Shown here in pieces: positions 8,803-17,940 of a DNA stretch of 22,778 nucleotides. How positions within the stretch are numbered: the first letter of the stretch is position 1; every line of letters starts with the position of its first letter. Made by a program: the position numbers and the translations under genes. The notes under the pieces are model-generated. The model had not been told where the DNA came from. It searched no databases and saw nothing but the letters and a program-made list of their open reading frames with translations. This DNA is from a virus: the IMG/VR virus record IMGVR_UViG_3300043750_000055, positions 1 through 22,778 of that record; one strand, 5' to 3'.

Positions 8803-8836
8803 TTGCAAGTGAGAGTCTAACTGCTAGGGTAGAAAC
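8803..8836 (+). promoter_or_regulatory. repeat-family promoter, leaderless type
   Basis: TTGCAA (8803-8808), 16-nt spacer, extended -10 TGC-TAGGGT (8825-8830), then AGAAAC and the ATG at 8837. The predicted transcription start falls on the start codon. Confidence 0.8.
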
Positions 8837-9040
8837 ATGCAGAAGCGCCCGATCATCCGGATTCAGCGGTGGACCCGGCCGTGGACCATCTACGGCCCGT
8901 TCACCATCTTCCGTGCCTCCAAGAGCGGCGGCCCGCTGCTCAAGGAGAACGTCCGCAGGTTCCACGACATCAACGGCTTCATGATCCAGACCCGTCGCTA
9001 CCGGATCCAGGTGGAGTTCCGTCGCCGGGGAGGGAAGTGA
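8837..9040 (+). CDS. small basic protein (67 aa), probably leaderless
   Basis: ATG 8837 lies 12 nt after the first base of TAGGGT and has no SD, so translation would start on a leaderless mRNA, a common mode in actinobacteria. The 67-aa product is basic, with alternating aromatic and hydrophobic residues (WTIYGPFTIFRASKSGG) and an arginine-rich end (YRIQVEFRRRGGK), suggesting a small beta-rich fold that may bind nucleic acid. No family is recognised. Its TGA stop directly abuts the next promoter. Confidence 0.65.
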   Translation: MQKRPIIRIQRWTRPWTIYGPFTIFRASKSGGPLLKENVRRFHDINGFMIQTRRYRIQVEFRRRGGK

Positions 9041-9083
9041 TAGGGTAGATATCACACGGACACCACGACCCGAGGAGACCCGC
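9037..9083 (+). promoter_or_regulatory. repeat-family promoter with leader
   Basis: TGA-TAGGGT (-10 at 9041-9046) followed by AGATATCACACGGACACC and CGAGGAGACC, an SD just before ATG 9084. The first TGA is also the stop codon of the upstream gene. No clear -35 is seen. Confidence 0.75.
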
Positions 9084-9380
9084 ATGACCTGGCCGCCCAA
9101 GCCCCGCAGCGTTGAAGAGATCGAAGCCGACTACGCCCAGAAGCGGGCGGACGGTCACCGGTTCAGCATCCCGGACCGCTACACCGTCGAATGCACCCGG
9201 AACCTGCTGGGCTGCAAGACGTACCACCTGTACGACCACGTAGAAGGCCACTTCCTGCCCAAGCTGACCAGCAGAGACCCGTACAAGCCGGAGGAAGCCC
9301 GGCGCGGGCTGGCACTGCTGTGGATGTACGAGCGGCACGACTACCTGGACCAGCTGCATCGCCGGAACTGCGACCTCTAG
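9084..9380 (+). CDS. small protein (98 aa), first of two tandem paralogs
   Basis: The N-terminal half reads P-x-x-R-S-V-E-E-I-E-A-D-Y-A and continues with RYTVEC, YHLYDHVEGHFL and a C-terminal helix with W-x-x-E-R. The gene at 9390 repeats the same order of motifs, so the two are tandem duplicates. The YDHV-x-G-x-F-L core looks like a beta hairpin. No known family is recognised. The good SD CGAGGAG follows the promoter leader. The stop TAG (9378-9380) overlaps the SD of its paralog (TAGGAG), which would couple translation. Confidence 0.75.
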   Translation: MTWPPKPRSVEEIEADYAQKRADGHRFSIPDRYTVECTRNLLGCKTYHLYDHVEGHFLPKLTSRDPYKPEEARRGLALLWMYERHDYLDQLHRRNCDL

Positions 9381-9389
9381 GAGACCCGA

Positions 9390-9674
9390 ATGACCCAGCT
9401 GCCCCCGCTCCGCAGCATCGAAGAGATCGAAGCCCGCTACGCGTACGCCCGGGAAAAGGGTGACCGGTACGCCGTCCACACCCGGTACACCCTGGAGTGC
9501 GTCCTGAACCGGGAGAACCAGCGGGTCTACCGCATCTACGACCACGTACACGGCCGCTTCCTGGGCAACTTGTTCCGGTACTCCCCGGAGACTCTGGAGC
9601 AGCGCAAGGACGCCATGAACCTGGTCTGGCACCGGGAGCGGAACATCCAGTACCACCGGCCTCGCAGGCGGTAG
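9390..9674 (+). CDS. small protein (94 aa), second tandem paralog
   Basis: It shares with the upstream gene the patterns RSIEEIEARYA, RYTLEC, YRIYDHVHGRFL and a W-H-R-E-R helix near the end; similarity extends to the DNA in the first 40 codons, so the duplication is not very old. The C-terminus diverges and is more basic (RPRRR). SD TAGGAGAC is 8 nt before ATG 9390. Function unknown; both copies are probably made from the promoter at 9041. Confidence 0.75.
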   Translation: MTQLPPLRSIEEIEARYAYAREKGDRYAVHTRYTLECVLNRENQRVYRIYDHVHGRFLGNLFRYSPETLEQRKDAMNLVWHRERNIQYHRPRRR

Positions 9675-9685
9675 CGCGGGGGGAG

Positions 9686-9753
9686 TTGACAGCTCCCCCT
9701 CATATGCTAGGGTAGATATAACGCAGTCGGACACCAGCCCCTAGGAGACCGCC
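9686..9753 (+). promoter_or_regulatory. repeat-family promoter with consensus -35 and leader
   Basis: TTGACA (9686-9691), 16-nt spacer, TGC-TAGGGT (-10 at 9708-9713), AGATATAACG, then GGACACC and the SD CTAGGAGACC before GTG 9754. It is the best-formed member of the family. Confidence 0.9.
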
Positions 9754-10059
9754 GTGAAGCACCGCAAGCCGCACACCAGCCTCTTCGAAACCGAAGACCA
9801 GACCTGCCCCCGAGTCAGCAACACCTCGTGGGCCTACGGGACGGCGAACGACCTGTTCGTGGGCGAGGAGCACGAGCGGTTCACTCCCTACGAGTGGCAC
9901 GAGCACAAGTACTGGGAGCAGGAGATCGCCATGGAGCAGGACATCGCGAGGCGGTACGGCGACTGCGGCGCACCCATCACCGGCACTATCACGGCCTGGG
10001 AGACCTACGAGGAAGAGGCTCGCATCGCGTGGGGCCTCCCGGCCGCCTGGGGGTTCTGA
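9754..10059 (+). CDS. small acidic phage protein (101 aa), unknown function
   Basis: GTG 9754 is preceded by AGGAGACC in the promoter leader. The 101-aa product is rich in Trp, Tyr, His and Glu (RFTPYEWHEHKYWEQEIAM) and ends G-L-P-A-A-W-G-F. It looks like a soluble, mostly helical protein. No family is recognised. Its stop overlaps the following ATG by one base (TGATG), so the next two genes are co-translated. Confidence 0.65.
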   Translation: MKHRKPHTSLFETEDQTCPRVSNTSWAYGTANDLFVGEEHERFTPYEWHEHKYWEQEIAMEQDIARRYGDCGAPITGTITAWETYEEEARIAWGLPAAWGF

Positions 10060-10262
10060 TGAGCAGGCATTCCAGCGAAGTTGAGGTCCGCGTGCGGCAG
10101 GCCAAGAAGGACCTGCTGCGCGCCGGGGCCACCTGGGAACAGATCTTCGCGCTTGAACTGGCCATCTTGAAGCAGGTCCAGAGTCACGCCGGTATCGGCG
10201 GCAACGCATCCACCTACGTCAACGCCCGTGTAACCAGCCTGGAAGGCGAGTGGCCATCATGA
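10059..10262 (+). CDS. small helical protein (67 aa), unknown function
   Basis: ATG 10059 overlaps the upstream stop. The core A-K-K-D-L-L-R-A-G-A-T-W-E-Q-I-F-A-L-E-L-A-I-L-K-Q-V looks like a helical hairpin or degenerate HTH. A similar arrangement (L-A-Q-T-G-M-T-A-D-E-I-W-A-A-E-L-P-I-R-R-Q) is seen in the product at 16073-16264, so the two may be distant paralogs. The last codons overlap the next gene by 4 bp. Confidence 0.6.
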   Translation: MSRHSSEVEVRVRQAKKDLLRAGATWEQIFALELAILKQVQSHAGIGGNASTYVNARVTSLEGEWPS

Positions 10263-10603
10263 CTGAGCCCACCATCCCGATCCTGACCCCCGACCCGCGT
10301 GAGCCCAAGCTGGCAGCGTGGGCCCGTGCCCGGATAGACGCCCTGCGCGGCAAGGTGCGGGACATGCAGGCGATCGTGGACGCCGTCCGGGGAGAGCACC
10401 CGGGCAGCAACGTCCGGATCTTCGAGAAGACCGGCCTGGGCAAGACCAACCTGCCCAAGGGGTCCATGATCGAGTTCGACTCCAACTGGGGCACGGTCAA
10501 GGTCTTCCACGACCTCAAGGGCCGCATCTGCGTCCAGGGGGACAACACCTTGCTGGTCCGGCTGGAGTCCGGGAACACACTCACGGTCGAGCTGGAGAAC
10601 TGA
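10259..10603 (+). CDS. small phage protein (114 aa), unknown function
   Basis: I chose ATG 10259 for the ATGA overlap; an in-frame GTG at 10250 is also possible, as GGAAGG lies just upstream. The N-terminal third is a proline-rich linker and helix (AAWARARIDALRGKVRDMQAIV); the C-terminal two thirds look beta-rich (SMIEFDSNWGTVKVFHDLKG, TLLVRLESGNTLTVELEN), compatible with a small barrel. No family is recognised. A terminator follows at 10616. Confidence 0.65.
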   Translation: MTEPTIPILTPDPREPKLAAWARARIDALRGKVRDMQAIVDAVRGEHPGSNVRIFEKTGLGKTNLPKGSMIEFDSNWGTVKVFHDLKGRICVQGDNTLLVRLESGNTLTVELEN

Positions 10604-10615
10604 CTGACCGTCCCT

Positions 10616-10652
10616 CGAAGCCCCCGGCAATTCCCTGCCGGGGGCTTCGCTA
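10616..10652 (+). terminator. intrinsic terminator
   Basis: CGAAGCCCCCGGCA (10616-10629) pairs perfectly with 10636-10649 (14 bp, 6-nt loop). It ends only 8 nt before the next -10 hexamer. Confidence 0.85.
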
Positions 10653-10654
10653 TC

Positions 10655-10669
10655 TGATAGGGTAGATAC
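10655..10669 (+). promoter_or_regulatory. repeat-family promoter, leaderless type
   Basis: TGA-TAGGGT (-10 at 10658-10663), AGATAC, then ATG 10670, the same 12-nt geometry as at 8825 and 14658. The -35 region would fall in the terminator stem and does not match consensus. Confidence 0.75.
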
Positions 10670-10909
10670 ATGGAGAGAGCCGTTTACCTCGTTCCCGTCT
10701 ACGGCAGCACCGGACACCGGTTCGTCGGACGCCCGGTCGGCCCCTACCTCGAAGACGACGTCTTCGGAATCAACGGCAGCGCCCGGACGCTGCGGGCCCT
10801 GTACCCGCAGATCACGGACTTGTACCGGGTCGTCGCCCGCAGCATCGACGGCGCCAAGGGGTTGGCCGCCCGGCAACTGGAGCGGGAGACCAAGAAGGCC
10901 GAGCGCTGA
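10670..10909 (+). CDS. small protein (79 aa), probably leaderless
   Basis: ATG 10670 directly follows the promoter with no room for an SD. The product starts with a beta-rich segment (ERAVYLVPVYGSTGHRFVGRPVGPYL) and ends in a charged helix (AARQLERETKKAER). No family is recognised. It is the only gene between a terminator and the next promoter, so it is expressed singly. Confidence 0.65.
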   Translation: MERAVYLVPVYGSTGHRFVGRPVGPYLEDDVFGINGSARTLRALYPQITDLYRVVARSIDGAKGLAARQLERETKKAER

Positions 10910-10912
10910 GGG

Positions 10913-10983
10913 TTGCGCTACCCCCTAGCACCTGTTAGGGTAGATATATCGAAGCACGGAACACCGAACCGAGGAGATCCGAG
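10913..10983 (+). promoter_or_regulatory. repeat-family promoter with leader
   Basis: TTGCGC (10913-10918), 17-nt spacer, TGT-TAGGGT (-10 at 10936-10941), AGATATATCG, then GGAACACCGAACC and the SD GAGGAGATCC before ATG 10984. Confidence 0.85.
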
Positions 10984-11235
10984 ATGAACCGCACCGTCAA
11001 GACCGTCGCCCTCGCCGCCCTCGTTGCCGCGACCGCCGTCAGCCTCACCGCCTGCGACCCGAGCGGCTCCGAGCCCACCGGCACGGTCGTGGCACGCACC
11101 GGAGGCGCCCCGATGAAGGCCAAGGGCGCCACGCTCATCGTGCACACCAAGGACGGCAAGACGGCCACCGTGGTCCTCCCGGCCGGGATCTACGAGAGCT
11201 GCTACATCGGGGAGCCGTACCCGAAGTGCAAGTAA
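10984..11235 (+). CDS. phage-encoded small lipoprotein (83 aa)
   Basis: The N-terminus is a lipoprotein signal peptide: basic MNRTVK, hydrophobic TVALAALVAATAVS, and lipobox LTAC with the lipidated Cys at 24. The mature part is about 60 residues, beta-rich (GATLIVHTKDGKTATVVLP), with two further cysteines near the end (ESCYIG and PKCK) that could form a disulfide outside the cell. A membrane-anchored exported protein in an early phage region suggests superinfection exclusion or envelope modification, which is inference. It has its own promoter and terminator, the layout of a moron. Confidence 0.8.
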   Translation: MNRTVKTVALAALVAATAVSLTACDPSGSEPTGTVVARTGGAPMKAKGATLIVHTKDGKTATVVLPAGIYESCYIGEPYPKCK

Positions 11236-11248
11236 CCGCCTAGCGGCC

Positions 11249-11287
11249 CAAAGCCCCGCCTGCTTCCGAGCAGGCGGGGCTTTGTCG
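11249..11287 (+). terminator. intrinsic terminator, overlapping the next -35
   Basis: CAAAGCCCCGCCTGC (11249-11263) pairs perfectly with 11270-11284 (15 bp, 6-nt loop). Its TTTG tail also forms part of the next promoter's -35. Confidence 0.9.
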
Positions 11288-11339
11288 TGAAATGGCCCCC
11301 ACCGTTAGGATAGATACCGATCATGACGGGAGGGTCTAC
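11282..11339 (+). promoter_or_regulatory. repeat-family promoter, TAGGAT variant
   Basis: TTGTCG (11282-11287), 18-nt spacer, TAGGAT (11306-11311), AGATACCGAT, then SD GGGAGGG before ATG 11340. The promoter placement argues against an upstream start at 11292. Confidence 0.75.
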
Positions 11340-11798
11340 ATGTGCCGCCACCTGCGGTTTCTTGAACTGGCAGCCCGTAATGCAGCGCTCTCAAACTGTC
11401 CGTTCAAACACGGTGCCCTCATAGTCCGGGGCGGAGCCATCCTCTCCAGCGCCCCGAACAAGCACCGCAACCCCCCGACGATCGACTACCAGGGATCCTC
11501 GGTGCACGCCGAGGTGGCCGCCCTGCGCCGCACACACGCCGCTGGAGCCACCCTCTACGTGGTCCGGCTGTCCCCGTCCGGGCTGGCCCTCTCCCGGCCC
11601 TGCCACCGCTGCTGGACGGCTATTGAGCGGTCTGGCGTGAAGGCTGTCGTCTACTCCACCGGCTCCGGTTATGCGGTGGAGCGGGTGACCCCTGGAGGCG
11701 CCATGAGCCTCGTGGAGACTCCCGCTGGACCCGGTCTGCCCTGGGCTGCGGAGAGGCCGTCAGAAGCCGTCCAGTGGCCGTCTGGAGGTGGCTACTAG
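11340..11798 (+). CDS. zinc-dependent cytidine/dCMP deaminase-like protein
   Basis: The 152-aa protein carries the deaminase signature: H56-A-E58 in SSVHAEVAAL and PCHRC (87-91, C88 and C91) as the other zinc ligands, with the preceding GALIVRGGAILSSAPNKH strand-loop seen in CMP/dCMP-type deaminases. Dcd-type activity would turn dCMP into dUMP, the ThyX substrate, but a free cytidine or other base substrate is equally possible. The C-terminal 40 residues are Gly/Pro/Ser-rich and not part of the fold. ATG 11340 is selected because GGGAGGG lies 7 nt before it and the promoter lies inside any longer frame. The stop overlaps the next GTG by one base. Confidence 0.8.
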   Translation: MCRHLRFLELAARNAALSNCPFKHGALIVRGGAILSSAPNKHRNPPTIDYQGSSVHAEVAALRRTHAAGATLYVVRLSPSGLALSRPCHRCWTAIERSGVKAVVYSTGSGYAVERVTPGGAMSLVETPAGPGLPWAAERPSEAVQWPSGGGY

Positions 11799-12124
11799 TG
11801 GGCGCCTGGCTGCATCCGGGGATGACCTCGGAAAGGGTTGAGCAGCTGCGCCAGTGGGCACTGAGGGCAGCGGAGCAGTCCCGCGAGTACGGCGAAAGCG
11901 AAGCGGTCTACTCCGGTTATTTGGACACCGCTGACCGGGCGTCTGACCTGCTGGATCGCCGGGCATTATGCGGTCGTTCATCCTGTTTCGCTGAGTGCGC
12001 GGTAATTCGGATGAGAGCTACAGAGCGTGAGCGAAATACCCGGGGCGGCTGCTTTTACCCGCTGTGCCTAATTCCAAGCCGCCGAATTCCTTCGGGGCAT
12101 ATTCAGTTCCACTACGACTCGTAG
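11798..12124 (+). CDS. small protein (108 aa) with compositionally odd C-terminus
   Basis: GTG 11798 has GGAGG (11784-11788) 9 nt upstream and overlaps the deaminase stop (TAGTG). The first 70 residues are helical (ERVEQLRQWALRAAEQSREYGESEAVYSGYLDTADRASDLLDRR). After about residue 70 the G+C content falls and residue usage changes (CFAECAVIRMRATERERN...), so the original gene may have been shorter and extended by a frameshift or junction. The TAG stop (12122-12124) overlaps the next SD, TAGGAG, which argues that this frame is used. No family is recognised. Confidence 0.55.
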   Translation: MGAWLHPGMTSERVEQLRQWALRAAEQSREYGESEAVYSGYLDTADRASDLLDRRALCGRSSCFAECAVIRMRATERERNTRGGCFYPLCLIPSRRIPSGHIQFHYDS

Positions 12125-12132
12125 GAGATGCC

Positions 12133-12315
12133 ATGCCTGCCTATTCGTACCGGTGTTCGAATAGTGACTGCCGAGACGTTCGAGACCTCACGGCTTCGGT
12201 GGAGGAGCGGGACGCCTGGCAGGGGAACCCCTGTCCGACCTGCGGTAATGGGAAGTTAAAGCGGCTGTTCAGCGCGCCGGGTTACCTCAACGTAGGCCTC
12301 GGCGACATCATTTGA
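12133..12315 (+). CDS. FmdB-like zinc-ribbon protein (60 aa)
   Basis: The 60-aa product starts MPAYSYRCSNSDC and has CPTC at 34-37, the FmdB-type zinc ribbon layout (here C8-x4-C13 instead of the usual CxxC), followed by a basic strand GKLKRLFSAPG. FmdB-like ribbons are found in bacteria and actinophages, with poorly defined roles, perhaps nucleic-acid or protein binding. TAGGAG precedes ATG 12133. It is the last gene before a long low-G+C non-coding stretch. Confidence 0.75.
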   Translation: MPAYSYRCSNSDCRDVRDLTASVEERDAWQGNPCPTCGNGKLKRLFSAPGYLNVGLGDII

Positions 12316-12652
12316 CGCAGGTTTCCTGCAAGCCTCAACTAACCCGCTTTTAGTTGCGAGTTGGTTGGGGTGTGACGTATCTTCGCCGTTACGCGCTAGT
12401 AGTAGCAGGGCTCATAAGCAAAGAGTTGTCGCGTAACAACTAACAAACATGGGTGATAGAGTTCGCAGGTGACAGTGTAGAGACATAGGCCACTCGATTT
12501 GACCCGAGCCCCAGAGTGGCGAAACATGGCGAGATGTAGCTAACGAACAGATATCGGACATACACCCCAGGCAGTATCAAGGGAGTACAGAGCCGGTCGT
12601 CTCGCCATGCGTGCCTAGCACGCCCAGACCACCACCCAGGAGACGCAAGAGC
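12316..12652. other. 337-nt non-coding, lower-G+C stretch with an inverted repeat
   Basis: No frame with an SD was found. GTTACGCG (12388-12395) is repeated inverted as CGCGTAAC (12431-12438), 35 nt apart. Around 12471-12487 a sequence ending in GTGTAGAGACAT resembles the repeat promoter at 14656 (about 13 of 16 positions), perhaps a decayed copy. The base composition is clearly more A+T-rich than the flanks. No tRNA or att site is recognised. Confidence 0.4.
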
Positions 12653-13027
12653 ATGCAAACGGAACGAGACAGCCGTCTGTCCATCGGAGACCTCGAAGAC
12701 CTGGCCACTGGTGAAACCACACTGCGTGCAGTGGACCGGTCTCGGGACCGGGATGAAGTGCAGCGGTACTTCGACAGACTCGTAACAGAGGCGTACCAGA
12801 AGTGGGTGGAGGCCAATAAGCCCTCGGTTCGCCGAGAGCGCCCCGCTTTGCGTGTGGACGCCCCAACGGAGGACGTGGCGGAGGAGGTCCGCAACCGGCT
12901 ACGTGCATCTGCGATGCACCTGGATGTCGGGATCTCGTTGGACCCAATTCACCGAGTGGGTGAGGGACGTTGGAGGGTGGCCTTCTCGGCGCAAGATAAG
13001 CGGAAGCGGTCCCCGAAGAAGCGTTAG
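12653..13027 (+). CDS. basic phage protein (124 aa), unknown function
   Basis: ATG 12653 is chosen because AGGAGACG lies 8 nt upstream; an upstream start at 12611 would place the SD inside the gene. The product has a charged helical first half (SIGDLEDLATGETTLRAVD, EVQRYFDRLVTEAYQKWVEA), a probable helix-strand section (TEDVAEEVRNRLRASAMHLDVGISL) and a strongly basic tail (DKRKRSPKKR), which suggests nucleic-acid contact. No family is recognised. Codon use is less G+C-biased than in the replication genes. Confidence 0.6.
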   Translation: MQTERDSRLSIGDLEDLATGETTLRAVDRSRDRDEVQRYFDRLVTEAYQKWVEANKPSVRRERPALRVDAPTEDVAEEVRNRLRASAMHLDVGISLDPIHRVGEGRWRVAFSAQDKRKRSPKKR

Positions 13028-13097
13028 ATGACTGCTGGTGCCACGGAGTCAGCGGAGTAGTGTGTTCTTCACAAGGTCTCCATCTGGGGGGACGGTG

Positions 13098-13120
13098 AAC
13101 GGCCACGCCGCCGTTTTTTT
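13098..13120 (+). terminator. intrinsic terminator with seven-T tract
   Basis: AACGGC (13098-13103) pairs with GCCGTT formed by 13110-13115, with a 6-nt loop, inside a T7 run (13114-13120). It separates the gene at 12653 from the one at 13136, whose SD follows at once, so some read-through or an unseen promoter is needed. Confidence 0.7.
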
Positions 13121-13135
13121 CACCAGGAGTCGTTT

Positions 13136-13303
13136 ATGCCCGTTTTCACTGCCCTCATGACCGATGCCTTCGGTGCAGAGGACCCGTTCCGTGAACTTGT
13201 CCGGAATGACCGGAGTTCGGTGGATGAAGATGTCCGGGTTCTCCCGGCTTGGGTCACGGTTCGCCTGACGGCGGACCTCCAGACCCGGCAGCTCGCGCAG
13301 TAA
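13136..13303 (+). CDS. small protein (55 aa), unknown function
   Basis: ATG 13136 follows CCAGGAGT at 6-8 nt. The translation (MPVFTALMTDAFGAEDPFRE..., ending in VTVRLTADLQTRQLAQ) shows an acidic first half and a beta-like end; it resembles no family I know. Position between two terminators makes it a one-gene unit. The short length and lack of similarity keep confidence moderate. Confidence 0.5.
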   Translation: MPVFTALMTDAFGAEDPFRELVRNDRSSVDEDVRVLPAWVTVRLTADLQTRQLAQ

Positions 13304-13325
13304 AGACGGTAACGGGGGAGTGAAC

Positions 13326-13363
13326 GGCCCGGAGAGATCCAGTCTCTCCGGGCCTCTTCTTTT
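13326..13363 (+). terminator. intrinsic terminator
   Basis: GGCCCGGAGAGA (13326-13337) pairs perfectly with TCTCTCCGGGCC (13343-13354), 5-nt loop, followed by TCTTCTTTT. It runs into the next promoter element. Confidence 0.9.
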
Positions 13364-13376
13364 GGGGTAGATACAA
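13363..13376 (+). promoter_or_regulatory. repeat-family promoter, degenerate copy (TGGGGT)
   Basis: TGGGGT (13363-13368) followed by AGATACA matches the family downstream of the -10 but lacks the consensus A at position 2 and the TGN extension. It would drive the protease gene at 13601 with a leader of about 220 nt. Confidence 0.55.
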
Positions 13377-13600
13377 CCAGCGGTACTCATCGGTAACCAC
13401 TGCTGCTACCCAGTCTGCGGGAAATCCTGCCTGAGACGATTGCCACAGAAAAAGGCCGGTTGTCTGTACAACCCTTTCGCCTGTAGTCGATCCGTTACAC
13501 AGGTTGCTCTCACCTGATCGAGATGCCCGCTTTACCTTCCTTGCTCCCGTTAGCGGGACAATTAGATGTTTACGAAGGCTGCTAGGAAGGCTGCACCGGT
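13377..13600 (+). other. long untranslated leader of the protease gene
   Basis: About 220 nt with several small stems: AAAGG/CCTTT enclosing GTTGT/ACAAC with a CTGT loop (13451-13477), AGGT/ACCT (13501-13514) and CCCG/CGGG (13545-13556). It is lower in G+C than neighbouring genes. SD AGGAAGG (13584-13590) lies 10 nt before ATG 13601. A leader this long suggests regulation at RNA or translation level. Confidence 0.4.
13523..13585 (+). CDS. possible 20-codon leader peptide upstream of the protease
   Basis: ATG 13523 opens a 20-codon frame whose TAG stop (13583-13585) overlaps the protease SD (TAGGAAGG). The same stop/SD overlap is used at two real gene junctions (9378 and 12122), which raises the chance of translational coupling. 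It has no strong SD of its own, only a weak GATCGAG, and the peptide is unremarkable. Confidence 0.2.
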   Translation: MPALPSLLPLAGQLDVYEGC

Positions 13601-14515
13601 ATGTCTCACTTACCCCTCGGGCGGTTGCACGCTCAGCCCGCTCGCCCCCAGCTCCGCTTAGAGGACCACCTCACCGGGTCGCTCCCCACGCCCCCGGCGT
13701 CCGTCGACTGGTACAGCAAGGTCACCGAATGGCCCATGTACCTCAACGACCAGCTCGGAGACTGCACCTGCGCAGCGGTGGGCCACCTCATGCAGGGCTG
13801 GACGCAGTACTCCACCGGGACCGCGTTCACCGTCGCCGACAAGGACGTCCTGGGCCTCTACGAGAAGGCGGCCGGGTACAACCCCGCTGACCCGAGCACC
13901 GACCAGGGTGCCTACATCCAGGACATCCTGGGCTACTGGCGCAAGAACGGCGTCTCCGGGCACAAGATCACCGCGTACGCCTCGGTGAAGGTCAGCAACA
14001 TGACGCTGATCAAGCAGGCTGTGGACCTCTTCGGCGCCGTCGACATCGGTTTCAACTTCCCGGCGTCCGCGATGGACCAGTTCAACCAGGGCAAGCCGTG
14101 GGACGTCGTCCGGGGCTCCCAGCTGGAGGGCGGCCACTGTGTGACCGTCGTCGGCTACAAGGCCAACGGCAACCTCGTGTGCATCACGTGGGGGGCTGTC
14201 CAGGAGATGACCCCGGCGTTCTGGACGAAGTACGTCGATGAGGCCTGGGTGATCATCACCCCGGACTGGATCGCGGCCAACGGGCAGGCTCCGGTGGGGA
14301 TCGACCTGTACTCCCTGGGGCAGGCGTTCGCCGCTCTCACCGGGCAGGCCAACCCGATCCCGGCCCCGGCGCCCGCTCCGCAGCCTTCTCCGCAGCCGCA
14401 GCCGACCCCTGTGCCGACTCCGACGCCGGTCCCGGTCCCTGCGGTCGACCCGAACACGCTGGCCGCTTACAGGGCGCTGGAGGCGTGGGCGAAGGCCAGC
14501 GGAGTCGCCGCCTGA
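13601..14515 (+). CDS. papain-like cysteine protease with Pro-rich C-terminal linker
   Basis: The 304-aa product has a papain-type core: Q51-L-G-D-C55-T-C57-A-A around the probable nucleophile, and G-G-H179-C-V-T-V-V-G-Y with the general base, followed by I-T-W-G (195-198). In papain the last motif is N-S-W-G, so the catalytic Asn is replaced by Ile here. After the core (about residue 225) comes GIDLYSLGQAFAAL, a run of some 30 Pro-alternating residues (252-283), and a final helix LAAYRALEAWAKASG. No signal peptide is seen, so it would act in the cytoplasm or with a virion. The Pro-rich linker suggests a tethered helical docking tail. Which of C55 or C57 is the nucleophile is unclear. Confidence 0.75.
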   Translation: MSHLPLGRLHAQPARPQLRLEDHLTGSLPTPPASVDWYSKVTEWPMYLNDQLGDCTCAAVGHLMQGWTQYSTGTAFTVADKDVLGLYEKAAGYNPADPSTDQGAYIQDILGYWRKNGVSGHKITAYASVKVSNMTLIKQAVDLFGAVDIGFNFPASAMDQFNQGKPWDVVRGSQLEGGHCVTVVGYKANGNLVCITWGAVQEMTPAFWTKYVDEAWVIITPDWIAANGQAPVGIDLYSLGQAFAALTGQANPIPAPAPAPQPSPQPQPTPVPTPTPVPVPAVDPNTLAAYRALEAWAKASGVAA

Positions 14516-14561
14516 CCTGCTGAAGCTGGGGTTTTGCCTGTGAGGTAAAACTCATTGTTAA

Positions 14562-14640
14562 GCGGGTGAACAAAATCGCTGTTCAGCCCGTATCTTGTGC
14601 CGGAAGCCCGGTCGATCTGACTCCATCGGCCGGGCTTCTT
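14562..14640 (+). terminator. two stem-loops, the second a likely terminator
   Basis: CGGG-T-GAAC pairs with GTTC-AG-CCCG (14563-14590). Then GAAGCCCGG (14603-14611) pairs with CCGGGCTTC (14630-14638), extended inside by CGAT/ATCG. The second ends in CTTCTT and lies 18 nt before the next -10. Confidence 0.75.
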
Positions 14641-14654
14641 CACGCCCTCAGATG

Positions 14655-14669
14655 TGCTAGGGTAGAGAC
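14655..14669 (+). promoter_or_regulatory. repeat-family promoter, leaderless type
   Basis: TGC-TAGGGT (-10 at 14658-14663), AGAGAC, then ATG 14670; TTCTTC 16 nt upstream is a poor -35. Confidence 0.8.
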
Positions 14670-14852
14670 ATGTCACTCGCTACCTTCTTCAAGAACGCCT
14701 TCCTGTGCGCGTTCTGGCTGCACGACTGGACCGACTGGGTAGCCCACGAGCCGCCCTGTGCCAACGAGGAGGTCACCGTGCACGAGACACGGCAGTGCAC
14801 CCGCTGCAAGCAGCGCCAGCACCGTATGGACGGGCAGGTGTGGTCCCTGTGA
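14670..14852 (+). CDS. small Cys/His protein (60 aa), probably leaderless
   Basis: ATG 14670 lies at the predicted transcription start with no SD. The first 18 residues (SLATFFKNAFLCAFWLHDW) are hydrophobic and aromatic; the second half has C30, then C43-x2-C46 and H51, a possible small zinc site. It resembles small Zn-binding phage proteins that carry an H/C-rich end. Its stop overlaps the following GTG by 4 bp. Confidence 0.65.
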   Translation: MSLATFFKNAFLCAFWLHDWTDWVAHEPPCANEEVTVHETRQCTRCKQRQHRMDGQVWSL

Positions 14853-15238
14853 GCCTCGTATCCGCCAACCTCATCACCCACGTCCACTGGACCGCCCGGG
14901 ACAGCGAAGAGAGCCGCCAGTTCTTCGGCTACTTCCGCATCGCCACCCGCGACGTCGGAGCCACCATCGGAGTCGGCGTCTACGCCATCCCCGGGGGACT
15001 CGGCGGCGAGAAGCTGGTCCACTCCTTCTACGCCCACACCCGGCACCCCGACTGGGCCGAGGAAATCACCCGGGACCTCATCCTGGAGACTGTGCGGGAG
15101 ATCCAGGAAGACCGGGGAGCCCGGTTCGTAGTGGACTACTTCCCCGAGAGGTTCCCGGCCCGCGCCGCCGAAGCGGGCCACGCACCACTGCCCGAGGAGT
15201 GGTTGACCAACGGCCGCCCCGAAGACGACGTCATCTGA
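14849..15238 (+). CDS. small phage protein (129 aa), unknown function
   Basis: GTG 14849 overlaps the upstream stop (GTGA). The product begins with a beta-rich section (ITHVHWTARDSEESRQFFGYFRIATRDVGATIGVGVYAIPGG), then a helix (WAEEITRDLILETVREIQED), a strand RFVVDYF and an acidic C-terminus. This alpha/beta pattern is conserved-looking but I cannot name it. It is followed after 12 nt by another gene with a strong SD. Confidence 0.65.
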   Translation: MSLVSANLITHVHWTARDSEESRQFFGYFRIATRDVGATIGVGVYAIPGGLGGEKLVHSFYAHTRHPDWAEEITRDLILETVREIQEDRGARFVVDYFPERFPARAAEAGHAPLPEEWLTNGRPEDDVI

Positions 15239-15250
15239 GGAGAGCCACCC

Positions 15251-15607
15251 ATGAGCCTCACCGTAAAGATCCAGACTGCCCCGTTCACCGACCACATCGC
15301 CAGCGACGGCACCCCGCTGAGCAAGCTGCCCTACCCGTTCTACGTCGACCCGGACGGCGGCGTCCAGCGGCAGGACGTCTGGCAGGGCAAGCCCAAGCGG
15401 GTCGTCGGCTTCCAGAAGGATCTGGCCGTCCAGCAGATCGACCTGTGGTGGCGCAAGGCCCTTGAGGACCCGCAGCAGGCTGTGGGGATGTACCTGGTCA
15501 CCGAGAACGCGGACGGCCAGTTCTGGACCCACAACACCGCCGTGGACTCCGTGGAGGTCCTGCACCACGGCATCCAGGACGGCCAGCACCGCTCCACGAG
15601 CGCCTGA
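15251..15607 (+). CDS. small phage protein (118 aa), unknown function
   Basis: GAGGAGAG lies 7 nt before ATG 15251. The product has short beta segments (SLTVKIQTAPF, YPFYVDPDGGV) and a central KRVVGFQKDLAVQQIDLWWRKAL helix. Nothing identifies a family. Its stop shares one base with the next ATG (TGATG), so the Cys-rich microprotein is co-translated. Confidence 0.65.
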   Translation: MSLTVKIQTAPFTDHIASDGTPLSKLPYPFYVDPDGGVQRQDVWQGKPKRVVGFQKDLAVQQIDLWWRKALEDPQQAVGMYLVTENADGQFWTHNTAVDSVEVLHHGIQDGQHRSTSA

Positions 15608-15735
15608 TGTGTGACGACTGCTGCCCGCACGGCCCCGAGCAGCCCTGCACCTGTGACGGGTGCTGGGCTTGCCCGGGGCACGTCGTGGGCTGTACCTGCG
15701 ATATCGCCTGGGACTGCGAACACGAGGAGAGATGA
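15607..15735 (+). CDS. cysteine-rich microprotein (42 aa, 10 Cys)
   Basis: ATG 15607 overlaps the preceding stop by one base. Cysteines at 2, 5, 6, 14, 16, 19, 22, 29, 31 and 37 make up about a quarter of the protein, spaced CxxCC, CxC-x2-C-x2-C and CxC, with two Trp and three His. The density is like that of metallothioneins or a tiny two-zinc-cluster protein; there is no signal peptide, so disulfide-rich secretion is unlikely. The last codons contain GAGGAG, the SD of the next gene, and codon use follows the neighbouring genes, which supports real coding. Confidence 0.6.
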   Translation: MCDDCCPHGPEQPCTCDGCWACPGHVVGCTCDIAWDCEHEER

Positions 15736-15737
15736 TC

Positions 15738-16076
15738 ATGGACGACAAGTTCGACTACAAGCGGCTGCTGGGCCCGATCGGACCGGACGGCGAGGAGCCG
15801 GAAGCAATCCGCATGTACAAGGCCAGTGCTGGAGCCCAGCGGCAGGCCCTGCGCGACGCCGGGCGGACGGAGGAGCAGATCGAGAACGGGATGCGGACGC
15901 ACTTCGAGTCCGCTGCCCGTGTGCTGGTGGAGCACCTGCACGGGGTGATTGCCAACACCGCCTACAGCGACCCGTTCCGGGCGGTTGCCCTCGCCCTCGT
16001 GGACAAGATCGACCCGGCCGAGAACCCGTGCGGGCGCACCTACTGCCTCACCTGCTACCCGGAGCAGACGCTCTGA
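15738..16076 (+). CDS. small phage protein (112 aa) with C-terminal Cys cluster
   Basis: Two in-frame ATGs exist (15732, 15738); 15738 is chosen because GAGGAG (15724-15729) lies 8 nt before it. The helical core reads QRQALRDAGRTEEQIENGMRTHFESAARVLVEHL; the C-terminus ends PCGRTYCLTCYPEQTL, a C-x4-C-x2-C group likely to bind metal. Function unknown. The last base of its stop is within the next presumed start (CTGA). Confidence 0.65.
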   Translation: MDDKFDYKRLLGPIGPDGEEPEAIRMYKASAGAQRQALRDAGRTEEQIENGMRTHFESAARVLVEHLHGVIANTAYSDPFRAVALALVDKIDPAENPCGRTYCLTCYPEQTL

Positions 16077-16264
16077 GCCGTGAACGGCAGCGCCTTCGCC
16101 GCCAGCTCATCCGCCAGCTCGAAGCCGCCTTGCGCCGCTGTGATGCCGTCACGGACATCCGCTGGCAGCTTGCCCAGACCGGCATGACAGCGGATGAGAT
16201 CTGGGCAGCCGAACTACCCATCCGCAGACAGATCCGCAGCGAACGCGACCCCAACAAGGAGTAG
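16073..16264 (+). CDS. small helical protein (about 63 aa), possible CTG start
   Basis: The frame is closed upstream of any ATG, GTG or TTG near the gene start, yet CTG 16073 overlaps the preceding stop in the usual 4-bp manner (CTGA) and has GGAG (16061-16064) 8 nt upstream. A TTG at 16130 is the only later alternative and has no SD. The product is basic and helical (RERQRLRRQLIRQLEAALRR), then L-A-Q-T-G-M-T-A-D-E-I-W-A-A-E-L-P-I-R-R-Q, resembling the protein at 10059-10262. The next gene follows 2 nt after the stop with SD AAGGAG. Confidence 0.5.
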   Translation: MSRERQRLRRQLIRQLEAALRRCDAVTDIRWQLAQTGMTADEIWAAELPIRRQIRSERDPNKE

Positions 16265-16266
16265 GC

Positions 16267-16578
16267 ATGCCCCGCTTGCCCCGGGAGCCCCAGGCACCCG
16301 AACCGCCGTCGCCCCGCTTGGCGGCGCTGGCCCTCAACTACCCGGAGCAGGTAGACCGGCTGCGCCGCATCACGGCTGGATGGCATCCCGACGATCCCCG
16401 CTGGAATGACCTGGTGGCCGTGATGGACTTCCACAAGCGGGACGTCCTGAAGCGGGAGGCGGAGCACCTTCGCCAGCATGCCGACGAGATCAAGCGGTTC
16501 CTGGAGCCGGGGGAGTGGACGGGTATCCGGATGGCTGCCAACGTGCTGCACCTGGATAAGCCCGCCCGTCCCCATTGA
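16267..16578 (+). CDS. small helical protein (103 aa), unknown function
   Basis: AAGGAGT precedes ATG 16267. After a Pro-rich N-terminus the product is helical and charged (YPEQVDRLRRITAGWHPDDPRWNDLVAVMDFHKRDVLKREAEHLRQHADEIKRFLE), consistent with a coiled or helical bundle. No family is recognised. The TGA stop (16576-16578) lies 5 bases before the next -10 hexamer. Confidence 0.6.
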   Translation: MPRLPREPQAPEPPSPRLAALALNYPEQVDRLRRITAGWHPDDPRWNDLVAVMDFHKRDVLKREAEHLRQHADEIKRFLEPGEWTGIRMAANVLHLDKPARPH

Positions 16579-16625
16579 TGTGCTAGGGTAGACACATCCC
16601 CAACCCCTTACCGAGGAGAACGATC
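16579..16625 (+). promoter_or_regulatory. repeat-family promoter with leader
   Basis: TGC-TAGGGT (-10 at 16584-16589), AGACACATCC, then CCGAGGAGAACG as SD before ATG 16626. The core GTGCTAGGGTAGACACAT is the closest match to the reverse copy at 2838-2855. No good -35. Confidence 0.75.
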
Positions 16626-17240
16626 ATGCACAGCACCCAGGGACCCTCCGGGCAGTGGTACGCCCACAACGGCGACTACTCCGGCAGCGTGCACGTGCAC
16701 ATCCCGGTCCGCGACCAGACCCGCTACCCCGATAAGGACCGCACGACCGCCAGCGCCGTGCACAACCTGCCCGGCGAAGAGGGCGAGTTCGTGCAGGTGC
16801 AGATCCCGTTCGAGGACATCCGCGCCCTGTACCTGGCCCACCTCCGCAGCGCAATGATCTCCCAGTTGGAGCAGCAGGACGCCACCCAGCTGGAAGAGGA
16901 GCTGATCGGGACCCACCGGATCGCCGCGCACCCGGCGCTGCGGGGCCTGAGGGACGACCAGCTGGAGAGGCTGGCAGAGTTCGCACGCGGGCTGTCCTCC
17001 CCGAAGCTGCGGGAGAAGGGCGTCTACAAGCACAAGACCGGTGTGGCCCTCGCCCGGATCGACCGGCTGACCTCGGGCGGCCACGTCCGGTTCTCCATCT
17101 GGTACCTGGAGAAGGACACCACGGAATGGATCAGCGGATCCATGCTGAGCCCCCGCGAGTTCCAGGACGCCTACCCCGACGCCTACACCGGCCCCGTACC
17201 GGTCACCCAGATCCCCGACGCCCCGGAGGGCACCGAATGA
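16626..17240 (+). CDS. phage protein (204 aa), unknown function
   Basis: The 204-aa product begins with a Gly/His-rich segment (GQWYAHNGDYSGSVHVHIPV), has strands around FVQVQIPFEDIRALYLAHL, a charged helical middle (QLEQQDATQLEEELIGTHRI), and a late domain with ARIDRLTSGGHVRFSIWYL and TEWISGSML. Two domains seem likely. I cannot assign a family. It is the first gene of a unit that continues with an overlapping gene and ends at the terminator at 17610. Confidence 0.7.
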   Translation: MHSTQGPSGQWYAHNGDYSGSVHVHIPVRDQTRYPDKDRTTASAVHNLPGEEGEFVQVQIPFEDIRALYLAHLRSAMISQLEQQDATQLEEELIGTHRIAAHPALRGLRDDQLERLAEFARGLSSPKLREKGVYKHKTGVALARIDRLTSGGHVRFSIWYLEKDTTEWISGSMLSPREFQDAYPDAYTGPVPVTQIPDAPEGTE

Positions 17241-17593
17241 GCGACCACGACACCCTGGACGAAGAGGCAGACCTCGTACACCGTCTCGCCGCGCGGGCCT
17301 GGAAGCTGCACACCCACCTGGAGTACGCGGGCGTGCCGCAGGAAGACCAGGATCTCCTGTTCATCGAGATCACCTACGCCGAAGCCAGCGCGTTCCGCCT
17401 GATCGCCCATCACGTCGGCAACCTGGACGCCCGGTTCATGTTCAAGGACCCCAACGACCGGGACGGCTCCGGCTTCGACTGGCACAAGACTGTGCACCTC
17501 ACCCACAGCATGCCGCGCGATCTGCACATGCCCCAGCCCGGCAAGGTCTGGACGGAAATGTACGGGATCCGCCTGGTCTGGCTCGGTAACTGA
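17237..17593 (+). CDS. small acidic protein (118 aa), unknown function
   Basis: ATG 17237 overlaps the upstream stop by 4 bp, with GGAGGG about 8-10 nt before it. The product begins SDHDTLDEEADLVHRLAARAWKL, then a helical part (DLLFIEITYAEASAFRLIAHHVG), then a beta/His-rich section (DWHKTVHLTHSMPRDLHMP). It ends MYGIRLVWLGN. The many His are not in an obvious metal motif. No known family. Confidence 0.65.
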   Translation: MSDHDTLDEEADLVHRLAARAWKLHTHLEYAGVPQEDQDLLFIEITYAEASAFRLIAHHVGNLDARFMFKDPNDRDGSGFDWHKTVHLTHSMPRDLHMPQPGKVWTEMYGIRLVWLGN

Positions 17594-17607
17594 GCCACCG
17601 CTACGCC

Positions 17608-17865
17608 TCAGCCCCTGGCCTCCGGGTCGGGGGCTTTCGCGTTTTCTTGATCCAGAATTTCGTGACTCTCAGAACCCCTCCGCTTCCTTGTGACGTATCC
17701 CGGCGCCGCGCTTAGGAGCGGTGCGAGCAGCCCGAGGGCGCGGCGTTCCTCATAAGCGCGGGTCCTACAAGACTGCCCGCAGTAGAGAGCGGGTCGACCC
17801 AACCGGGCTCGTAGGAAGGGTTCTCCGCAGCGGATGCAGTTGAACGACGGCTCCATCTCGACCAT
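17608..17865 (-). CDS. leftward zinc-ribbon protein (85 aa)
   Basis: On the minus strand, ATG 17865 has GAGGAG about 11 nt upstream. The product holds C10-x2-C13-G-E-P-F and, after RLGRPALY, C29-x3-C33-R-T-R-A-Y-E-E-R-R. This matches a widespread actinobacterial zinc-finger layout with a basic helix after the last Cys, typical of small nucleic-acid-binding proteins. The C-terminal 50 residues are less structured, and the last ten are encoded within a plus-strand terminator hairpin. It is the only leftward gene in its neighbourhood. Its own promoter is not evident. Confidence 0.6.
   Translation of the reverse strand: MVEMEPSFNCIRCGEPFLRARLGRPALYCGQSCRTRAYEERRALGLLAPLLSAAPGYVTRKRRGSESHEILDQENAKAPDPEARG
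17610..17645. terminator. terminator between convergent genes
   Basis: AGCCCC-T-GGCC (17610-17620) pairs with GGTC-G-GGGGCT (17625-17635) through an 11-bp stem with two wobbles and a 4-nt loop, followed by TTCGCGTTTTCTT. The same bases encode the end of the leftward gene. Confidence 0.75.
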
Positions 17866-17890
17866 GACCGGCTGTACTCCTCACCTGGGT

Positions 17891-17940
17891 TGTGCTAGGG
17901 TAGATACATCTACACGGGACACCGAAACGAGGAGACCCAC
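17891..17940 (+). promoter_or_regulatory. repeat-family promoter with leader
   Basis: TGC-TAGGGT (-10 at 17896-17901), AGATACATCT, then ACGGGACACCGAAACG and SD GAGGAGACCC before ATG 17941. It has the clearest copy of the leader motif. Confidence 0.85.

Follow-up and report, generated by a model that had tools for sequence, protein, structure and literature searches.

The near-identical elements repeated through the 22,778-nt stretch of viral DNA analysed here (the window) are probably complete promoters, at which host RNA polymerase carrying a sigma factor of the HrdB/SigA type would start short transcription units. The ten copies in the window represent a small part of a set that spans the genome, and the phage lineage appears to use the element dozens of times per genome to drive short, often single-gene units. 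Recognition would rest on an extended -10 (TRTGN-TAGGGT) and on AGATAC, a discriminator of 6 bp that has G at -5, and the two combined may compensate for -35 boxes that are weak or missing; transcription is predicted to start at the A after AGATAC. In about a tenth of the copies, transcription would begin at the start codon itself, giving a leaderless mRNA, and most remaining copies would yield leaders of about 20–40 nt with a common ACACC...CCGAGGAGA ribosome-binding segment. A hairpin on or just before many copies probably ends the preceding unit, leaving small genes in insulated promoter-gene-terminator units, and selection for promoter strength may be what keeps AGATAC constant. The phages form a little-known, uncultured group of large viruses, whose hosts are probably Streptomyces-like soil bacteria.

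Copies of the Element in the Window

All ten positions listed in an earlier note on this DNA carry TAGGGTAGATA on the + strand with 0 or 1 mismatch. Across the window, matches with at most 2 mismatches number 11, against 1.3 expected in shuffled sequences (no shuffle reached 11), and a TGN-anchored form of the motif has 12 matches against 1.07 expected. Good -35 hexamers lie only where the same note had placed them, at 8803 (TTGCAA, spacer 16), 9686 (TTGACA, spacer 16) and 10913 (TTGCGC, spacer 17), and are poor at the other copies. Three features had escaped it: at 8825, 10658 and 14658 the predicted +1 is exactly the first base of an ATG, making three candidate leaderless cases in the window; five copies have strong hairpins upstream; and relatives carry the motif throughout their genomes.

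All features described here are on the + strand. In promoter 1 (8803–8839), the -35 TTGCAA (8803–8808), TGC (8822–8824), the -10 TAGGGT (8825–8830) and AGAAAC lead to an ATG at the predicted +1 (8837), which opens the putative leaderless gene 8837–9040. The stop codon of this gene is the TGA of promoter 2 (9038–9053; TGA-TAGGGT-AGATAT), whose leader GGACACCACGACCCGAGGAGACCCGC (9054–9083), of a type enriched in relatives, precedes ATG 9084. Promoter 3 (9686–9720) reads TTGACA, 16 bp, TGC-TAGGGT-AGATAT, with a predicted +1 at about 9720 and a leader to GTG 9754; by direct reading, its TTGACA (9686–9691) lies in the loop of the inverted repeat GGGGGAG-TTGACAG-CTCCCCC (9679–9699). The hairpin GCCCCCGGCA-ATTCCC-TGCCGGGGGC (10620–10645, also read directly) is a probable terminator of the upstream unit and stands before promoter 4 (10655–10672; TGA-TAGGGT-AGATAC-ATG), which would serve the leaderless gene 10670–10909. 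Promoter 5 (10913–10948) consists of TTGCGC, 17 bp and TGT-TAGGGT-AGATAT, with +1 predicted at about 10948 and the leader GGAACACCGAACCGAGGAGA to ATG 10984.

Another probable terminator, a hairpin with a 14-bp stem (11250–11283, read directly and in part also listed by a scan), precedes the weaker promoter 6 (11303–11318; CGT-TAGGAT-AGATAC), which stands before the dCMP-deaminase-like gene 11340–11798. A terminator-like hairpin with a 13-bp stem and a T-rich tail (13326–13354) lies upstream of the variant promoter 7 (13360–13375; TTT-TGGGGT-AGATAC); the nearest confident start is at 13601, which suggests that the leader is long or the RNA non-coding. The hairpin GAAGCCCGG ... CCGGGCTTC (14603–14638), on direct reading a probable terminator too, precedes promoter 8 (14655–14672; TGC-TAGGGT-AGAGAC-ATG) and its putative leaderless gene 14670–14852. 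Promoter 9 (16581–16596; TGC-TAGGGT-AGACAC-ATC) has a leader with ACCGAGGAGA to ATG 16626, and promoter 10 (17893–17908; TGC-TAGGGT-AGATAC-ATC), the best copy with a score of 36.2, has the leader GGACACCGAAACGAGGAGA to ATG 17941. The earlier claim of one leader, with two conserved elements, in five copies proved loose: CGAGGAGA is present at 9041, 10936, 16584 and 17896 but reads CTAGGAGA at 9708, and GGACACCGA occurs in exact form at 17896 alone, as a variant at 9041, 9708 and 10936, and not at all at 16584.

A Genome-Wide Set in Related Phages

A motif search in related phages, which the earlier note had proposed as a check, returned dozens of sites per genome: 78 in a contig of 125 kb, 67 in one of 89 kb and 56 in one of 76 kb. 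Together these make about 201 sites above the score cut-off in 290 kb, against 5 in the reversed-sequence controls of all three contigs. These controls and the shuffles of the window contradict the notion, raised in that note against its own reading, that the motif is equally frequent at random places. Almost all sites in the relatives lie between genes, mostly upstream of starts and very rarely inside genes, and they are dense in small-gene regions but thinly spread across the structural region. At about 60% protein identity, orthologous promoters retain a core identity of 0.8–1.0, compared with 0.25–0.4 in their far flanks.

In 3.1 Mb of Streptomyces and Kitasatospora replicons, TANNNT-AGANAYAT does not occur, which indicates that host promoters normally look different. 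A single match to the full consensus turned up among 84,980 genomes of bacteria and archaea, in Brevibacillus and probably by chance; a BLAST search of known phages with the best copy returned nothing relevant; TGNTANNNTAGANAYA was missing from phages phiC31, R4, TM4, SV1, Zemlya and VWB; and TANNNTAGANNYA was no commoner in T5 (16) than in its reversed control (18). Rfam gave no match above threshold, and a simple promoter scan recovered none of the sites because TAGGGT is too far from TATAAT.

Core Architecture, Leaders and Hairpins

The element has a regular layout: a weak TTG -35 at 17–18 bp, TRTGN, TAGGGT, AGATAC and A at the predicted +1. Its TANNNT -10s and the position of its TTG uphold the earlier description of primary-sigma-type promoters repeated ahead of small-gene units. 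TAGGGT is the -10 in most copies, and TTG falls at spacers of 17–18 in 67 of 152 sites, a sharp peak against 0–4 at each other spacing; HrdB/SigA-type promoters, when they have TTG, have it at 16–19 bp, and TGN promoters prefer an 18-bp spacer (PMC10911233). In the relatives, all 94 TGnTAGGGT sites near gene starts continue with AGA, and 90 of the 94 with AGATA, and no TGnTAGGGT lies inside a gene; conversely, AGATAYA near starts has TANNNT directly upstream in 110 of 111. A start purine is expected about 7 nt past the -10, the very position at which ATG falls in the leaderless copies. No trade-off between -35 and core strength was seen, as TTG-bearing sites score higher, not lower.

Distances from the -10 to the start codon are bimodal, being either exactly 6 nt (to ATG) or about 25–54 nt. 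Where ATG stands at +1, a frame of 66 codons or more begins at 19 of 20 sites; where ATC stands there, the figure is 41 of 95. Leadered genes share the ACACC...CCGAGGAGA leader; in one contig, CCGAGGAGA is found in 17/45 promoter-bearing genes and in 1/127 others. Hairpins stand at or just before the site in 36 of 130 cases with a same-strand upstream gene (expected 1.0), about one quarter, often with the -35 in the loop, compared with 1 of 21 divergent cases (expected 0.2). The inverted repeats were rejected as a sequence-specific operator, since the stems differ from site to site and accompany same-strand upstream genes; terminators fit them better.

Candidate Readers of the Element

Some points speak against the host holoenzyme as a sufficient reader: at about 9 bits the discriminator carries the same information as the -10, although discriminators are usually not highly conserved (PMC10911233); the total of 23–25 bits per site exceeds the 11.5 needed in the phage alone or the 18 needed in phage plus 9-Mb host; and, as judged from the replicons searched, host promoters would not resemble the element. 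The earlier note had gone further, holding that RNA polymerase needs nothing past the -10 and that conservation there implies another reader or a spread of the whole cassette. This premise is too strong, given that sigma region 1.2 and core contact the discriminator and +1 region, and that, in discriminators of 6 bp, G at -5 is known to make a stabilising contact (PMC12464699; PMC10911233). With such contacts, conservation by itself does not imply a phage regulator; what still favours a further reader is a discriminator about as informative as the -10.

There is a modest chance that a second factor, encoded by the phage and acting as repressor or activator, recognises the invariant AGATAC at 50 or more promoters simultaneously, and if so, a whole large phage genome would be switched via its promoter cores rather than a few operators. 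More specifically, the promoter might double as a phage-regulator site, an asymmetric operator over the -10 and discriminator to which either an activator or a repressor that silences the resident phage would bind, but this seems unlikely. The excess information would fit such a site, and genes for Cro/C1-type and GntR-type HTH proteins, ParA, an integrase-family protein and an ImmA-like protease in one contig make a lysogenic state plausible. Genomes of cluster A mycobacteriophages likewise have many oriented, asymmetric sites for their repressor (PMC9283540), but these stoperators are 13-bp repressor sites, not promoter cores, and also occur in short promoter-free intergenic gaps, whereas the sites described here are nearly all in promoter position and not scattered away from starts. 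The core is also unchanged between phages of about 60% protein identity, although immunity operators tend to diverge.

The same discriminator also follows other -10s. Cluster BI Streptomyces phages carry TGGTACTRT-AGATACA, in one case ahead of a gene annotated as WhiB whose ATG falls at +1, and unrelated lower-GC phage contigs have TATAAT followed by AGATACAT, several with TTGAC upstream. This recurrence favours polymerase over a lineage-specific protein. It bears equally on the improbable case of a polymerase specificity factor that the phage encodes or alters, for instance a divergent sigma, and that would read the element as a temporal class: the element is phage-specific and unevenly spread between small-gene and structural regions, yet its geometry is that of canonical primary-sigma promoters and canonical hexamers (TATAAT and TTGAC) accompany it in other phages. 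No Sigma70_r2 domain was found in five contigs, which may be incomplete. Matches to sigma region 4 were rejected as sigma factors, being LuxR-type HTH proteins, and a search of the phage contigs for WhiB domains found none. Most proteins of these phages have no known function, and a phage-encoded factor could have been missed among them in incomplete contigs. The failure to detect a phage sigma and the TATAAT-AGATACAT pairing in unrelated contigs make the host housekeeping holoenzyme the likeliest reader.

Duplication or recombination of the whole promoter-leader cassette, with similarity due mainly to descent as in repeat-mediated module shuffling, is very improbable: leader segments are indeed common among promoter-bearing genes and rare elsewhere, and 9 breaks in the alignment of two relatives fall at the motif where 3.7 would be expected, but this excess is weak (random draws reach 10), upstream flanks of the copies have no common sequence, the 52–54 promoter-bearing genes of two contigs fall into 49–53 families, and conservation is limited to functional positions, with leader gaps of varying length and a core kept while orthologous flanks diverge.

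Implications

If the elements are promoters, the sequence by itself yields a transcription map of this group of uncultured large actinophages, with start sites, leaderless genes and unit borders callable genome-wide. The roughly 200 natural promoters and their invariant discriminator, which recurs behind different -10s in unrelated phages, offer a direct test of what makes a discriminator strong in high-GC bacteria, and their cores may provide strong, compact promoters for Streptomyces work.

Comparison With Known Systems

In S. coelicolor, promoters have a TANNNT -10, 21% of mRNAs are leaderless and the commonest leader is 30–39 nt (PMC4895711), and the -35s of HrdB promoters are weak (PMC6344877). 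The element resembles Streptomyces HrdB promoters in its TANNNT -10, weak -35, predicted leaderless mRNAs and leader length, and differs in its fixed -10 centre and AGATAC discriminator. Morons are genes of phages that have a promoter and a terminator to themselves. The units described here are likewise promoter-gene-terminator units of one or few small genes, but tens of them, with one promoter sequence, form the main layout of whole regions.

Motifs of Microbacterium phages (clusters EC, EF and EI) and of the Gordonia phage Vardy (cluster DJ), the latter a 50-bp motif with a TATAAT -10, are also short, asymmetric and placed in small intergenic gaps before starts; they have other sequences and five to twelve copies per genome, and the accessible parts of these reports describe neither a leaderless class nor hairpin overlap, both present here (PMC7302621; PMC9671010).

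The earlier likening to start-associated sequences of some mycobacteriophages was apt: the conserved discriminator and start-associated leader recall the SAS and ESAS of cluster K mycobacteriophages. ESAS contains a SigA-like promoter with -35 and -10 17–18 bp apart, SAS is an over-conserved ribosome-binding segment with AGGAG, and both are repeated, oriented and upstream of the start codons of mostly non-structural genes (PMC3203893; PMC11373665). Cluster K genomes have 7 ESAS (Adephagia) and 13–19 SAS, compared with 56–78 sites per large contig here. The ESAS promoter is surrounded by a 17-bp inverted repeat of conserved sequence, whereas the repeats here differ from site to site, and in place of the 13-bp GGGATAGGAGCCC of SAS, adjoining start codons, the leader consensus here is GGACACC-n-CCGAGGAGAC. 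The sequences are unrelated, and conservation here centres on the -10 and discriminator, with some copies leaderless. Repeated actinophage promoters such as ESAS are known already, and the sequence and layout described here are a variant of them.

Structure and Distribution of the Predicted Promoter Element

The -10 hexamer and the discriminator form a single element. Near gene starts, sites selected by the -10 side alone were followed by AGA in 94 of 94 cases, upholding an earlier note's claim of conservation past the -10, and those selected by the discriminator side alone were preceded by TANNNT in 110 of 111. Within genes, TGnTAGGGT was not found, and the four occurrences of AGATAYA all lacked TANNNT ahead; together these patterns argue for one unit. 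The consensus of aligned sites reads TTG (about 24 bases upstream of the -10), TRTGC, TAGGGT, AGATAC, ATC. The TTG -35 peaks at spacers of 17 and 18, as a primary sigma factor needs; the same note had found the -10 and its TGN extension to fit such factors in actinobacteria. For 173 of 200 sites in the three large related contigs, the first downstream gene lies on the same strand.

Ten copies had been proposed in the window (first -10 base at 8825, 9041, 9708, 10658, 10936, 11306, 13363, 14658, 16584, and 17896), and each departs from TAGGGTAGATA at one base at most, all on the plus strand (shuffled sequence, about one match). The element also occurs genome-wide in related phages and is nearly absent from reversed controls: TAGGGTAGA has 17, 45, 48, and 42 copies in four related contigs (reversed pattern, 0-1), and a weight matrix built from three of the four matched 201 sites in 290 kb of relatives vs. 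5 in reversed sequence. The core was present in thirteen further contigs, with 0 control matches. Applied to the window, the matrix returned 12 sites, namely the ten copies, a weaker one at 12473, and a weaker one at 2851 on the minus strand. The latter, TGCTACGGTAGACACA (2839-2854), opposes the plus-strand genes on either side of its gap and is a possible antisense promoter.

Predicted Transcription Units and Start Codons

About half of the predicted units contain a single gene. Of 130 sites preceded by a same-strand gene, 36 have a strong inverted repeat upstream, where 1 would be expected; for sites preceded by a divergent gene the figure is 1 of 21. Most of these repeats are centered 19-26 bases upstream of the -10, placing the -35 in the loop or 3′ arm, and their stem sequences differ between sites; we read them as putative terminators that close the unit before and are joined directly to the promoter that follows.

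Start codons lie at two kinds of distance from the -10: exactly 6, which puts them at the predicted +1, or, for the most part, 25-54. Genes were called with a simple script on contigs that are fragments, and since starts at distance 6 received a small bonus, the count was rechecked without it: ATG stood at this predicted +1 in 20 sites, 19 with open frames of at least 66 codons, compared with 41 of 95 sites with ATC there. Window copies 8825, 10658, and 14658 have a start codon at the predicted +1. Leadered genes share ACACC...CCGAGGAGA, which is rare ahead of other genes. The variant promoter at 13363 precedes approximately 225 nt lacking a gene start (13360-13600), perhaps a long leader or a small RNA; an Rfam search gave no match above threshold.

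Recognition and Maintenance of the Element

No sigma region 2 or WhiB domain was found in the contigs, which are fragments, and region-4 matches were small LuxR-type proteins whose own genes are headed by the element. LazerLemon-type phages each carry two promoters with TACTRT-AGATACA. TATAAT-AGATAYAT promoters, some behind TTGAC, are repeated in phage contigs of 36-45% GC (L204, L191, L195), with several in each of two lower-GC contigs; as these were found through the discriminator, their count is uninformative, while their canonical hexamers are informative. The discriminator is 6 bp long, and its G at -5 sits where sigma 1.2 is known to make contact (PMC12464699, PMC10911233). The lack of hits to these domains, the canonical hexamers, and G at -5 make the host housekeeping polymerase the probable reader, and the one we favor.

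The further reader suggested in the earlier note is possible but less favored than that polymerase. The element holds 23-25 bits, 9 of them in the discriminator, vs. 11.5 needed inside the phage or 18 with a 9-Mb host added, which leaves room for a second reader, and TANNNT-AGANAYAT was absent from the host-type replicons searched; selection for strength offers a simpler account. Spread by cassette duplication or recombination is not supported: between orthologous promoters of relatives with about 60% protein identity, -10 identity is 0.93-1.0 and discriminator identity 0.81-0.91, compared with only 0.25-0.4 in the far flanks, and promoter-headed genes in the two best-covered contigs comprise 49-53 families among 52-54 genes, a pattern pointing to selection on the core and not recent copying.

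Lifestyle, Gene Content, and Host

ParA-like, integrase-family, Cro/C1-type, and GntR-type proteins are among the matches listed for contig G002 (IMGVR_UViG_3300047472_000191, 124939 bp), possibly a temperate or plasmid-like phage; such genes make it conceivable that the phage can persist as a lysogen or in a plasmid-like form, with a repressor. A polymerase-like protein could be encoded beyond the matches listed. Near its C-terminus, a 1931-residue protein of this contig is similar to a phage family of ADP-ribosyltransferases. A phage WhiB protein has distant matches on two circular, non-mobilizable Streptomyces plasmids of about 89 kb, NZ_CP012383.1 (pSAM1) and NZ_CP130725.1, which may be phage-plasmids; TANNNT-AGANAYAT was absent from both.

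The window, an entire viral contig of 22,778 bases, encodes ThyX, Sak4-like, DNA polymerase, HNH endonuclease, and primase-polymerase proteins, among others. Two small neighboring paralogs (9084-9380 and 9390-9674; about 72% DNA identity in cross-matches) are headed by a single promoter. The ThyX gene (976-1486) is 75-80% identical in DNA to that of R4-type Streptomyces phages, and DNA comparison found no such match in the rest of the window, which suggests recent exchange. Protein relatives are LazerLemon-type Streptomyces phages (cluster BI); about 40% identity to their polymerase and portal points to an actinobacterial, probably Streptomyces-like, host.
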